From: Planctomycetota bacterium
Lineage (GTDB): Bacteria; Planctomycetota; Phycisphaerae; Phycisphaerales; SM1A02
DNA length: 64,000 bases
Assembly (NCBI GenBank): GCA_022574595.1
Contig: JACZRS010000015.1
Span: 1-64,000, forward strand
Direction: 5' to 3'
In this document: piece by piece, positions 34,723 to 39,184 of the stretch
How positions within the stretch are numbered: position 1 is the stretch's first letter
Layout: every line of letters starts with the position of its first letter
Notes under the pieces: model-generated
What the model was told of the DNA's origin: nothing
Seen by the model: the letters and a program-made list of their open reading frames with translations, nothing else
Database searches by the model: none
Made by a program: the position numbers and the translations under genes

Positions 34723-35925
34723 CTAATCTCTACTAATCACCGTTGCTATACCCTGGCCGACGCCTACGCATAGTGTAGCCAGGCCGAGGCTTGTATTCGT
34801 GCGAATTAATTCATGAAGCAGTGTCGTGACAAGCCTGGCACCGGTGCAGCCTAGCGGGTGGCCGATGGCTATGGCGCCACCATTTGGGTTCACCTTCGCT
34901 TCATCTAATCCTAGTTCGCCAATACATGCTAGTGCCTGGGCAGCAAAAGCTTCGTTTAATTCAATAATATCAATATCAGACAGCTTGAGTTTGGCTCGCT
35001 CTAAGACTTTTTTTGTGGCTGGCACAGGACCTAATCCCATACAAGCAGGATCAACTCCCGCAGTTGCGGAGCAGCCTACATAGCCAAGTGGCGATAGCCC
35101 CATGGATTTTGCAACTTCAGCTTCAACTAATAAAACAGCCGCAGCACCATCGTTTATTCCAGCGGAATTACCTGCTGTGACGGTTCCTTTTTCATCCTTT
35201 GCGAATACTGGTTTGAGTGTGGCAAGTTTTTCGAGGGGAGTTTCAGGCCGAGGGTGTTCATCCGTATCTACAATAATCGCATCTTTTTTTCTCTGGGGAA
35301 TTTCAATTGGGACTATTTCATTATCAAACTTGCCCGATGCGTTGGCAGCCGCCCATTTCTGCTGACTGTCAAATGCGAATTTATCTTGATCTTGGCGATT
35401 GATATTGAATTTACGTGCCACGTTTTCAGCGGTTTCACCCATGGAGTATGGGTGGTAAAGTTCTGAAAGCTTAGGATTTGTAAACCGCCAACCGATTGTT
35501 GTGTCGTACATTTCTGCGTTACGATCAAACGCCGCTTGCGATTTTGCGACAACAAACGGCGCTCGACTCATACTCTCAACACCACCAGCAATAAACACGT
35601 CGCCGTGACCCGCTTCAATCATCCTCGCAGCGATGTTGATGGCTTCAAGCCCCGATGCGCAGAGGCGATTAACAGTGCAGCCGGGGACAGTCACCGGCAG
35701 CCCCGCAAGCAATGCAGCCATCCTTGCCACATTTCGATTGTCTTCGCCCGCTTGGTTTGCTGCACCAAAGTAGACATCTTCTATGAGCGATGGATCGATA
35801 GCGGATTTATTAATTACAGCCGAGATGATGGTCGCAGCCAGATCATCAGGCCGAACCGAAGCCAGTGCTCCGCCATAACGGCCAATGGGCGTGCGGAGGG
35901 CAGTAATAATGGCAGCTTTTCGCAT
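34723..35925 (-). CDS. paaJ: Beta-ketoadipyl-CoA/acetyl-CoA thiolase
   Basis: 400 residues. Nucleophile C89 ([13 protein letters not shown]), substrate-site [11 protein letters not shown], and the C-terminal [11 protein letters not shown] and CVGVGQG motifs with the second Cys. Its place directly before paaA argues for the final thiolytic step of phenylacetate breakdown (to acetyl-CoA and succinyl-CoA). Confidence 0.9.
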
Positions 35926-35962
35926 AGGCAGATGATAGCGGAGAAGGGAGAAGAAGGCTTTA

Positions 35963-35990
35963 GGTGTCAGGAGTCAGGTTTCAGGGTTCA
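35963..35990. repeat. Heptamer tandem array D
   Basis: GGTGTCA, GGAGTCA, GGTTTCA, GGGTTCA: four 7-base units of the form GGNNTCA in the 70-base gap upstream of paaJ, touching the DUF559 element. Confidence 0.6.
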
Positions 35991-35995
35991 TATTC

Positions 35996-36467
35996 ACCCT
36001 CCCTTTTAGGGAGGGGGTTAGGGGGTGGGTATTTTTGTCAATTCACTATCAATACTCTCAACAGCTTGCAATATCGCGTTGCCAACAGCTTCAAGATCTT
36101 GAAGCACATCATCATTAGTAACGCGCATAACGCGGTACCCTAGCTTCTTAAGCGATCGAGTTCGAGCTTCATCAGTATCTGCACGACCAACATGACTTTC
36201 ACCATCAACTTCTACAATGAGTTTGTGTGCAGGGCAGCAGAAATCGACAATGTATTTTCCTATTACAGCTTGCCTGCGAAACTTAAGACTATCGAGTTGG
36301 CTTTTTCTTAATAGTTGCCAAAGTATTCTTTCGGGTTGGGTTGGGAGATTTCGCATCTCTGCTGCTCTTGCGCGCAAGACTGGGGGTATGCGGTGTTGTT
36401 TTTGTTTACTGGAAGTTTTGTTCACTGCTTTACCCACCCCCTAGCCCCCTCCCTGGAAGGGAGGGGG
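35996..36467 (-). mobile_element. Miniature element: DUF559 nuclease gene framed by inverted repeats
   Basis: Left copy 35996-36030 and right copy 36432-36467 are inverted to each other. Each consists of a small hairpin (CCCTCCC, a short loop, GGGAGGG) followed by a TAGGGGGTGGGT tail that points inward toward the gene. The interior is almost entirely one 139-codon nuclease gene. The repeats supply the last codons and stop of paaH, the GTG start of the nuclease and the nuclease C-terminus. The compact layout suggests insertion at the 3' end of paaH. Confidence 0.65.
36018..36437 (-). CDS. DUF559 (Vsr/PD-D/ExK-type) endonuclease-like protein
   Basis: 139 residues. The core YIVDFCCPAHKLIVEVDGESH has D65, E76 and D78 in the order expected of a PD-(D/E)xK nuclease; LPTQPERILWQLLR and FRRQAVIG are DUF559 hallmarks. 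GTG 36437 overlaps the paaH stop by 8 bases. The C-terminus (KIPTP) is encoded by the left repeat. Function of the family is uncertain; homology to Vsr and MutH-like nucleases is fold-level knowledge. Confidence 0.8.
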   Translation of the reverse strand: MGKAVNKTSSKQKQHRIPPVLRARAAEMRNLPTQPERILWQLLRKSQLDSLKFRRQAVIGKYIVDFCCPAHKLIVEVDGESHVGRADTDEARTRSLKKLGYRVMRVTNDDVLQDLEAVGNAILQAVESIDSELTKIPTP

Positions 36468-37605
36468 AATAAGATTTGCCGATTTGTTGTGCCCATTCGA
36501 ATGGGCCCTTGGGGTAGTTTACGCCAAACTTTAGTGCGGTGTCGATATCTTGTTTCTCCGCAACACCCCTGTCGTAAGCGTGCTGCGCTTGAGTGAATAA
36601 CGCAGAAAGTATTCGCGCAAAGACATATTGTTGAAGCTCATCACCAGTTTCATCTGTCGCAGCGCGTACAAACCCGCTTGCGGCTTCGCGTTGCTGTTCA
36701 TTTAACCCTAACGGTATTAAATCAATATCAATCGCAGCACAAGGCGAATCACCACTATAGTCATAAACGCCGCGCCCCGTCTTCTTCCCCAAATAACCAT
36801 CCGCAACAAGCTGCTCCTGCAAACTACTAGGAGTTAACAGTGGGGGCCGATCAAGCTGCTCCCAAACACTTCTTGATGTTGCGGTATTAATATCCTGCCC
36901 GATCAGATCAGTAAGTTCCAACGGCCCCATACGAAACCCGCCAAGCTGCTTCATGGCATTATCAATTTGCTCAGGTGTTGCGTAACCATCTTCAAGGATC
37001 CTAAATGCTTCAAGGTAGTACGGCCTAGCAACGTGATTCACAATAAACCCAGGCACATCCGCTGCCCGCGCAACTTTCTTACCCCATGATTCTGCAATCT
37101 TCGCAACACGATCTGCAATCGCAATATCAGTTTTATCACCCTTAATAACTTCAACCAGCTTCATAATTGGAGCAGGGTTGAAAAAGTGCATTCCTACGGT
37201 TCGATGAGATTGCCCAATGGCTTCGCCGATCTTTGTTACCGATAGTGATGAAGTATTTGTCGCAATAATGCAGTCGCTATTTAATGCGGGAATGATATTG
37301 CCCAGCACCTTGGCTTTGATATCCAAATCCTCAACAACCACTTCAATAATAAGTTCGCAATTGCTGAAACAATCTGGCGAGTTCGCAACAAGCAAGTTCT
37401 TTGCAGCAACATCTCGCTGATCTTGTGTTGAACGTTCCTTCTCAACCAGTCGATCCAAACGTTTATTTATACCTGCTATTGCAGCGTGAACCGTCGCTTC
37501 ATCCACATCCATAAGCTCGACGGTCCAGCCGGCCATTGCCGCAACCTGTGCAATGCCCGCACCCATTGTCCCTGCGCCAATAACACCAACCGTTTTTGAA
37601 CTCAT
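36430..37605 (-). CDS. paaH: 3-hydroxyacyl-CoA dehydrogenase
   Basis: 391 residues. NAD motif VIGAGTMGAGIAQ near the N-terminus, catalytic-His motif GMHFFNPAPIMKLVEVI, then the helical domain (GFIVNHVARPYYLEA, GGFRMGPLELTDLIG) and a partial second copy. It oxidises the 3-hydroxyadipyl-CoA intermediate. The start is ATG 37605; a longer frame from 37680 reads through a REP copy. The last residues (SPSLPGRGLGGG) are encoded by the inverted repeat of the DUF559 element, so the original C-terminus has been replaced. Confidence 0.9.
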   Translation of the reverse strand: MSSKTVGVIGAGTMGAGIAQVAAMAGWTVELMDVDEATVHAAIAGINKRLDRLVEKERSTQDQRDVAAKNLLVANSPDCFSNCELIIEVVVEDLDIKAKVLGNIIPALNSDCIIATNTSSLSVTKIGEAIGQSHRTVGMHFFNPAPIMKLVEVIKGDKTDIAIADRVAKIAESWGKKVARAADVPGFIVNHVARPYYLEAFRILEDGYATPEQIDNAMKQLGGFRMGPLELTDLIGQDINTATSRSVWEQLDRPPLLTPSSLQEQLVADGYLGKKTGRGVYDYSGDSPCAAIDIDLIPLGLNEQQREAASGFVRAATDETGDELQQYVFARILSALFTQAQHAYDRGVAEKQDIDTALKFGVNYPKGPFEWAQQIGKSYSPSLPGRGLGGG

Positions 37606-37622
37606 ATTTATCATCAACACGT

Positions 37623-38243
37623 TTAGCCGCGACCCGACAGGGGAGCGCTTAGCGCGGAGATTGGCTGCACAAACCCCCATACCTGTCGCTGCTTACCTTC
37701 TTTTAGTGGATTATCTTCAACGTATTTAATTGCACGCACAATATCTTCATATGAATTCAGATACACCTTCCATTGTCCACGCGCCCACATTTTGGGCAAT
37801 CGCTCACCTTCATTCGCAAGTGAAGCAAACGGATGCAAGTTATCGCTTGCAAGTTTGTGCGAAGCAGCACCCTTTAGCAGATTAGTAGCATATTCAATTT
37901 TATATCTGTGGCGAGAAATTACCATATGCACATGCTCGGGCAGGATTGTGCAAGCTAGAACATTTAAACCACTAATTTGTGCGAAGTCTGCGAATCCGAA
38001 GCCAATACTTCTAGCTTGATTGCCGGTAAATTGAACTGGTGGATATTTTAGTTTACGTTTAGCAGCCTCGCGCATTTCCTGGTCGTGTCTGTGGCCTGCA
38101 ACGGATTGGCGAGTTTGAGTTTTTGTTGCTTTACCGAAGCGGAGCAATTCCCATGCGCCTATGAAGTTTGACCAGGATCCTCTGGGGTCGTTGGGGAGCC
38201 AAAAGCCGTAGGAGCAGAAGATGATGTGGTATGCCTTAACCAC
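37623..38243 (-). CDS. REP-associated tyrosine transposase (RAYT, Y1/HUH family)
   Basis: 206 residues. HUH motif H104-V-H106 (ILPEHVHMVIS) and catalytic Y174 in AIKYVEDNP; the N-terminal YHIIFCSYGFWLPNDPRGSW block is typical of RAYTs. GTG start just inside the upstream REP. The final residues are encoded by the downstream REP copy. RAYTs nick and rejoin single-stranded REP DNA. It interrupts the paaH-paaG spacing. Confidence 0.85.
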   Translation of the reverse strand: MVKAYHIIFCSYGFWLPNDPRGSWSNFIGAWELLRFGKATKTQTRQSVAGHRHDQEMREAAKRKLKYPPVQFTGNQARSIGFGFADFAQISGLNVLACTILPEHVHMVISRHRYKIEYATNLLKGAASHKLASDNLHPFASLANEGERLPKMWARGQWKVYLNSYEDIVRAIKYVEDNPLKEGKQRQVWGFVQPISALSAPLSGRG

Positions 38244-38247
38244 GGGC

Positions 38248-38347
38248 TAAACGTTCCCCTGTCGGGTGGCGGCTAAACGGGCTGGTTTTTGTGACTTAAT
38301 ACCATTGCACACTCTCCAAACGCTCCCCTGTCGGGTCGCGGCTAAAC
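38248..38347. repeat. Two REP-like copies in direct order
   Basis: Copies at 38248-38278 and 38318-38347 share AACG(C/T)TCCCCTGTCGGG and the GGCTAAACGGG(C/T)TGGTTT flank. The first differs at two stem positions. Together with the 37621 copy and a solitary one at 48805 they define the family. Confidence 0.75.
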
Positions 38348-38368
38348 GGGTTGGTTTGCGGTTAAACA

Positions 38369-39184
38369 TTATTTTCCCGTGAACTCCGGTTTGCGCTTTT
38401 CTAGGAATGCGGTTACGCCTTCGAAATGGTCTTGGGTTTTTCCTGCGGTGTCTTGTGCGAATGACTCTGCTTTTAATTGACTATCAAGATCGTTATCAAA
38501 TGATTGGTTTAATAGACGCTTAGTTAGCGCTAACCCGCGGCTGGGCATTGCTGCGAGCTTCTTTGCCATGGCTCTTGCTTCATCCATTAGTTGATCCGCT
38601 TCTACAACCTTATTAACCAGCCCAAGTTTTAATGCTTCTTCTGCACTAATCTTGTCGCCGGTGAAGCAGAGTTCTTTGGCTTTTGCTAGTCCTACAAGTC
38701 TTGGCAGTATGTAGGTGCTACCCGTATCAGGAATTAGCGCGACATTTATAAACACTTCTATTAGTGATGCATAAGTTGATGCGATTCTTAGATCACACAC
38801 AAGCGCGATGCTGCAACCCGCGCCTGCCGCCACGCCGTTAATCGCTGCTATGACTGGCTTATCCATATTGAAAATGAGTTTTGCGATGGGATTGTAACGT
38901 CGATCCAAATCCTTACTGAACTCCGGAACATAACCAGGCACATAGCGATCCTTTAGATCACCAAGATCCTGACCGGAGCTAAACGCTTTACCCGCGCCTG
39001 TGATAATAAGTACGCGCACATCCTTATCACGAGCTGCTTGCTTTAATGCATCCTGCAATTCAAATGAAAGCTGATCGTTAAATGCGTTGTAAACTTCAGG
39101 GCGATTGAGCGTGATCGTGCAAATGTGATCAGAAACTTCAACCGTTAATTTTTCAAATGTCTTTTCAGTAGCAGTAGCTGGCAT
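38369..39184 (-). CDS. paaG: Enoyl-CoA isomerase/hydratase, PaaG-like
   Basis: 271 residues, crotonase fold. GQDLGDLKDRY forms part of the oxyanion loop; AAGAGCSIALVCDLRIAS lacks the first catalytic Glu, and the second acid is the Asp in LIPDTGSTYILPRL, as in PaaG (ring 1,2-epoxide to oxepin isomerase). Ends KRKPEFTGK. Likely converts the epoxide product of PaaABC to the oxepin. Confidence 0.87.
   Translation of the reverse strand: MPATATEKTFEKLTVEVSDHICTITLNRPEVYNAFNDQLSFELQDALKQAARDKDVRVLIITGAGKAFSSGQDLGDLKDRYVPGYVPEFSKDLDRRYNPIAKLIFNMDKPVIAAINGVAAGAGCSIALVCDLRIASTYASLIEVFINVALIPDTGSTYILPRLVGLAKAKELCFTGDKISAEEALKLGLVNKVVEADQLMDEARAMAKKLAAMPSRGLALTKRLLNQSFDNDLDSQLKAESFAQDTAGKTQDHFEGVTAFLEKRKPEFTGK

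Follow-up and report, generated by a model that had tools for sequence, protein, structure and literature searches.

A DUF559 nuclease gene between inverted BoxC-like repeats as a probable minimal mobile element

What kind of genetic unit is formed by one small gene lying between two inverted copies of a hairpin-forming repeat, so tightly that the repeats provide its start and its stop as well as the end of the neighbouring gene? The question is raised by a locus in the window, the stretch of 64,000 nucleotides of Planctomycetota bacterium contig JACZRS010000015.1 that we analysed, and it concerns DUF559, a widely distributed family whose function Pfam still gives as unknown. The gene (36018-36437, minus strand) encodes a protein of 139 amino acids that matches PF04480 with E=1e-36 and 125.6 bits, the cut-off being 20.6, and it is the only gene inside the repeats, in a unit of about 470-490 bp. 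The left terminal inverted repeat (35988-36031, plus strand) has its hairpin, CCCTCCC-TTTTA-GGGAGGG, on the outside and a G-rich tail towards the gene; the right one (36431-36474, minus strand) is of the same type, again with the hairpin outside and the tail inwards. The two are 44 nt long each, 89% complementary and separated by 399 nt, and the pattern of the repeat, which reads CCCTCCCTTTTAGGGAGGGGGTTAGGGGGTGGG, has two matches in the 64 kb window, compared with a mean of 0.00 over 100 shuffles. The left tail contains the DUF559 stop codon TAA (36018-36020), the right tail contains the first possible GTG start (at 36437), and the last 13 codons of the paaH-like 3-hydroxyacyl-CoA dehydrogenase gene (36430-37680, minus strand, as the open reading frame is listed; its true start may be later) are right-repeat sequence, YSPSLPGRGLGGG. 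Downstream of the element lies a thiolase gene (34723-35925, minus strand).

An earlier note, made from the bare sequence, had described a single DUF559 gene bounded by inverted hairpin-plus-tail repeats that supply its start, its end and the last codons of paaH, and this description stands in full; its coordinates, 35996-36467, were correct to a few bases, but on either side the aligned repeats reach some 7-8 nt beyond them. An Rfam search of 35500-38400 gave no match up to E=1, and PADLOC found nothing beyond a weak mREase_II match (19.8 bits). As a separate observation, a Y1/RAYT-like gene (37623-38243, minus strand) lies beside paaH, outside the repeats and about 1.2 kb from the DUF559 unit; it scores below the curated cut-offs (PF01797 21.5 of 23; NF047646 44.6 of 80), and a palindrome-like stretch at this gene (37627-37655) has one copy in the window.

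The hairpin-plus-tail architecture of the repeats is that of a family known as BoxC, PIT or TM, which forms an intrastrand triplex in vitro and, according to the accessible sections of PMC4666352, has been known since the 1990s and occurs in more than 260 genomes. The same sections report 23 copies in E. coli MG1655, five inverted pairs among them, at unstable loci; they describe the repeats without a linked enzyme and, in E. coli, without association found with transposons, phages or plasmids, whereas here a repeat of this type ends a DUF559 unit. The word "endonuclease" is absent from the main text of that paper. The window repeat does not fit the E. coli consensus (CCCTCNCCCN3-6GGGNGAGGGN3GGGNGAGGG; PMC4666352, accessible sections), and since its letters differ we call it BoxC-like. 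What it shares is the relation of tail to hairpin: across 140 arms from 77 loci, tails match a fold-back onto their own hairpin with a mean of 0.815, versus 0.757 when the tails are permuted (the highest value in 500 permutations being 0.774), and 94 of the 140 arms reach at least 0.85, the relation expected of a triplex-type repeat. In the window, the right arm matches at 1.0 and the left, whose outer stem base is changed, at 0.625 as parsed. Because tails match their own hairpins above random, the triplex geometry tends to persist through changes of the letters.

If gene and repeats form one unit, related genomes should be informative about how they come and go. When paaH was searched for in 61 genomes, among them that of the window, 30 loci were returned, namely the window, four matches at a greater distance and 25 relatives that were examined. 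A thiolase match follows paaH in 15 of the 25 relatives, and neither DUF559 nor the repeat (by its hairpin pattern) was found downstream of paaH in any of the 25, over about 1.4 kb for most of them (the sequence stops immediately in one locus and after 1.1-1.2 kb in two). In the nearest syntenic relative, L251 (identity 76% for paaH and 82% for the thiolase), about 180 bp separate the two genes and contain neither DUF559 nor a repeat; this is an empty site at paaH of the kind that the earlier note had proposed to look for. Given that relatives lacking the element have the thiolase next to paaH, the thiolase marks the far side of the site, and given that these relatives lack both gene and repeats, the two either arrived jointly at the window site or were lost jointly in the relatives. 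The 3' end of paaH was probably rewritten by insertion of the element.

Elsewhere in its own 4.09 Mb genome, the window repeat has four further copies at up to 3 mismatches, six in all with the two of the element. None of the four belongs to a tail-to-tail pair, and no such pair other than the element itself was found in this genome. The window's DUF559 gene is its only strong DUF559 match. A looser pattern finds 36 copies, of which 30 form a second subfamily, CCCTCTCC..GGAGAGGG..GGGTGAGGG (24 of the 30 viewed), mostly solitary and close to the E. coli BoxC consensus.

A richer series of states was found at one intergenic site in Bradyrhizobium, where both orthologous flanks could be located for 28 of 30 loci. 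No repeat is present at 13 of these sites, two of which contain another insert (11 if these are set aside); one repeat is present at three, two repeats without the gene at one (L143) and the DUF559 gene at 11. The earlier note held that relatives keeping both repeats without the gene would speak against it, and such a state does exist at one of the 28 sites, but around a DUF559 remnant. Compared with the element of DUF559-bearing L131, its sister on the tree of flanks, L143 retains the left end (73 of 80 bases identical, 91%) and the last part of the gene together with the right end (89 of 111, 80%), and the middle is missing. Since its repeats surround a remnant, L143 is a deletion derivative and does not refute a mobile element; as an internally deleted copy keeping both ends, it has the form of a MITE. 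Well-supported branches force at least four changes of DUF559 presence at this site, with a whole-tree minimum of nine. Labels shuffled on the flank tree need as few changes in 333 of 500 cases, and repeated loss of a resident element fits the scatter as well as repeated gain. Other inserts were also seen in Bradyrhizobium: one of about 1.2 kb at this site in L136 and L139, patatin-like by eye, and in L130 a palindromic one within a repeat hairpin, likewise seen by eye.

Solo, paired and full states at one site would also be produced by homing alone, with the nuclease gene invading pre-existing repeat pairs that are its target and not its ends. The characterised relative I-Bth0305I is a homing endonuclease, and at two E. 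coli sites BoxC sits where other strains have REP-like sequence. We nevertheless regard this explanation as unlikely, given that 13 of the 28 Bradyrhizobium sites (11 without the two other-insert sites) have no repeat to be invaded and that none was found beside paaH in the window's nearest relative, L251. These repeat-free sites indicate that repeats and gene come and go together.

The arrangement is not confined to these two settings. DUF559 loci were scanned with alignment of relatives and the best 80 of 555 confirmed loci were kept, 73 of which had at least 250 bp on both sides and were scored. Within this selection from the best 80 of 555, 48 of the 73 loci have an inverted repeat scoring at least 18 no more than 300 nt from the domain match, compared with one of 392 control windows shifted by 1.2-2.2 kb within the same loci; grouped by common neighbourhood, the figure is 37 of 58 independent neighbourhoods. 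The repeats are hairpins with a fold-back tail directed towards the gene at 32 of the 48, have the tail outwards at 8, and show neither or both at the other 8. Represented among the loci are Planctomycetota, Alpha-, Beta- and Gammaproteobacteria, Chloroflexota, Cyanobacteria and Bacteroidota, and among high-scoring Bradyrhizobium loci, some of which share sites with the 73-locus set, 27 of 30 reach a score of 18. Conversely, in a one-contig Planctomycete (G080) with 48 repeat copies, there are three tail-to-tail pairs whose members lie 435-532 nt apart (start to start). Each of them encloses one of the three strong DUF559 genes of this genome, and an extra copy lies within one of the pairs. 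DUF559 genes without repeats, which the earlier note had named as a second point against it, do occur: the association holds for 48 of the 73 loci, but 25 of the 73, again from the best 80 of 555, have no inverted repeat at score 18, so that not every DUF559 gene belongs to such an element.

As for the protein itself, its predicted structure (mean pLDDT 85.5) was compared with the PDB by Foldseek and resembles 3hrl (E=2.2e-9), the catalytic domain of I-Bth0305I (3r3p, 6.8e-6) and Vsr (5.2e-3), and a sequence profile agrees for 3hrl and 3r3p (3r3p E=7.8e-6). The predicted fold is thus Vsr/I-Bth0305I-like and, by both profile and Foldseek, that of an EDxHD homing endonuclease. In 49 sequences chosen from repeat-flanked loci, eight residues do not vary (E36, W40, Q56, E76, D78, H82, D89 and R92), and four of them, E76, D78, H82 and D89, may be the EDxHD active-site residues. 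The kinship suggested by these models is one of fold and sequence for I-Bth0305I and of fold for Vsr. E. coli vsr adjoins dcm (PMC12907096, accessible part), and I-Bth0305I is the protein of a mobile intron; no report of either between such repeats was found in the literature searched.

A fold of this kind invites another explanation, in which DUF559 would be a resident nuclease for mismatch repair, similar to Vsr, and its small gene would be flanked by hairpins that serve as terminators or insulators. Genes often end in hairpins, the predicted fold does resemble Vsr (E=5.2e-3), and Caulobacter VsrA, which has a DUF559 domain, has been proposed for very-short-patch repair (PMC12907096, accessible part). 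On the other hand, the gene and both repeats are absent as one unit, similar repeat pairs exist without the gene, G-rich tails pointing inward on both sides would be an unusual terminator design, and earlier work cited in the accessible sections of PMC4666352 found no terminator activity of the E. coli repeat. We consider a resident repair gene with terminators quite unlikely.

REPINs are dispersed inverted repeat pairs that exist as short units, and pairs of this kind occur in Bradyrhizobium and in Planctomycete relatives, though not in the window's own genome. Bradyrhizobium macuxiense (G101) has 85 repeat copies, with none for a reversed-pattern control. Among the copies listed, close neighbours (less than 200 nt apart) are tail-to-tail in 21 of 33 cases in this genome, in 12 of 12 in G069 and in 8 of 8 in G096, and the head-to-head cases inspected in B. 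macuxiense resemble two adjacent units. Its paired unit runs from about GTGAGG to CCTCAC over roughly 150-240 bp, with imperfect ends, and 21 such units gave no consistent target-site duplication at any offset. Pairs of mixed loop type account for 8 of 8 in G096 (p=0.018) and 12 of 21 in B. macuxiense (p=0.24). A candidate asymmetry between left and right ends (a loop base that is G at the 5' end and A at the 3' end) was dropped as not general: it appeared as 15 GA and 0 AG of 30 in Bradyrhizobium, several sharing one site, and as 3 to 1 of 22 outside it, with 38 of 90 loci unreadable. The relative G096 has 71 repeat copies, all eight of its listed close pairs being tail-to-tail with mixed loops, and has no DUF559 match; either DUF559 has been lost there or its repeats were moved by something else.

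Which enzyme, then, goes with the repeats? The pairs might be REPINs moved by a Y1/RAYT transposase, with DUF559 a passenger caught between two of them, and there is something to recommend this: REP-RAYT systems share the layout, the window has a RAYT-like gene about 1.2 kb from the unit, and among Planctomycete relatives at least five copies are found in 22 of 60 Y1-positive genomes and in one of 41 Y1-negative ones. Copy number follows DUF559 as well, however. Taking E<1e-17 as a strong match, and with tests that ignore kinship, the median copy number is 17 in the 21 of 101 Planctomycete genomes (own included) with strong DUF559 and 0 in the remaining 80 (p=8e-8, kinship uncorrected); the reversed-pattern control gave 0 except in G078 (5 matches) and in G097 and G099 (1 each). 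DUF559 still tracks copy number inside the Y1-positive Planctomycetes (p=3e-6), and among the Y1-negative ones, four of which have DUF559, it is not associated with it (p=0.16). In 117 Bradyrhizobium genomes, the 104 with strong DUF559 have a median of 8 copies versus 0 in the 13 others (p=0.008, kinship uncorrected), 20 of the 104 having no copy of the pattern, whereas copy number is unrelated to Y1 presence (p=0.29). Between 21 and 75 copies are present in 13 Bradyrhizobium genomes that have no Y1 match, although two of these, G111 and G219 (25 and 23 copies), also have only a weak DUF559 match. Furthermore, the same gene family between repeats across many phyla is not what one would expect of a passenger, and we hold the passenger explanation to be very unlikely. 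Protein and repeat also vary together: over non-syntenic locus pairs, with three loci excluded for an internal stop (L042, L043 and L108), similarity of protein and of repeat correlates with rho 0.265 for all 83 loci (p=0.0005), 0.368 for the 34 from Bradyrhizobium (p=0.0002) and 0.145 for the other 49 (p=0.019).

We thus consider it probable that the unit is a minimal mobile element, a DUF559 gene between inverted BoxC/PIT-like ends of triplex type, resembling REPIN-RAYT systems but with a Vsr/EDxHD-type nuclease. That it is a mobile unit, as the earlier note had suggested, is well supported by the joint absence of gene and repeats in relatives, by the internal deletion in L143 and by the dispersed paired repeats. 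The repeats would be the ends of the element, and repeat pairs with little between them would be non-autonomous derivatives that arose from it by internal deletion, in the same relation to it as REPINs to RAYTs. DUF559 is likely the enzyme of the unit, and the conserved arrangement, the co-variation of protein and repeat and the nuclease fold suggest that it may act on the repeat, perhaps by cutting it. A Vsr/homing-type nuclease would recognise the hairpin-plus-tail end, perhaps extruded or single-stranded at a replication fork, and would cut at the repeat end or at a target; host repair could then fill the break with a copy of the element or of a derivative.

Known systems resemble this element in part. 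A REPIN-RAYT system likewise has a gene between inverted palindromic repeats (PMC3733652, accessible sections) and dispersed inverted pairs as short units, and no target duplication was seen here; its enzyme is an HUH transposase and its repeat has a GTAG tag, in contrast to the PD-(D/E)XK nuclease of Vsr/EDxHD type and the G-rich fold-back tail found here, where the Y1-like gene lies outside the flanking repeats. CGTC-tagged REPs are also palindromic, also present in Bradyrhizobium and said in the same sections of PMC3733652 to have no dedicated transposase, but A/T pairs nearly always begin their 8-9 bp stems and their tails are mostly CCA, whereas here the repeats are rich in G/C and their long tail is rich in G. 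A classical insertion sequence would have a DDE or HUH transposase inside and a target duplication; the unit contains DUF559 only, and no duplication was consistent over the 21 units.

So small a unit, with one nuclease, is a candidate mover for the long-known and unexplained BoxC repeats, and would, if this is true, represent a new class of mobile element made of a repair/homing-type nuclease and a triplex-forming end. It is possible, and we propose it tentatively, that DUF559 proteins are the movers of BoxC/PIT/triplex-type repeats throughout bacteria, the ends being intrastrand triplexes and a Vsr-type nuclease the sole enzyme, recognising them; ycjD, the E. coli DUF559 gene, would then be decayed or domesticated, and its absence would explain the low BoxC number of some lineages. 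The literature searched, with subscription journals mostly outside its scope, yielded no described spreading mechanism or linked enzyme for BoxC-type repeats and no link between DUF559 and these repeats, the accessible parts of PMC12907096, PMC9403480 and PMC12308824 included; the last reports Legionella segments that are repeated and recombine and that contain DUF559 along with a transposase. Nor do the accessible parts of the ycjD literature (PMC12817139, PMC1189080) link that gene to these repeats, the original BoxC and PIT papers lying outside the scope of the search. The statement in the earlier note that the system was not known as described therefore holds, in the papers searched, for the DUF559-repeat link, but not for the repeat type, which is known as BoxC/PIT/TM (PMC4666352, accessible sections).

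In E. coli itself, BoxC copy no. 9 of PMC4666352 (1,351,204-1,351,239) adjoins ycjD. It is a single repeat of this type downstream of the gene, and no second copy was seen upstream. In a sample spread over a ranking of 5,422 records (60 listed, one plasmid set aside), the median number of BoxC places is 19 in the 37 that match the repeat together with its ycjD-side flank and 5.5 in the 22 without such a match (p=4e-8), a difference confounded by lineage. A clean empty site of BoxC was not found in E. coli: at ycjD, other lineages have the eef operon, and at two BoxC sites, with four strains each, other strains have REP-like sequence instead. At nrdAB and tktB-ypfG (L280, L282 and L284-L291), BoxC and this REP-like sequence, which is presumably REP/BIME, interchange between strains.
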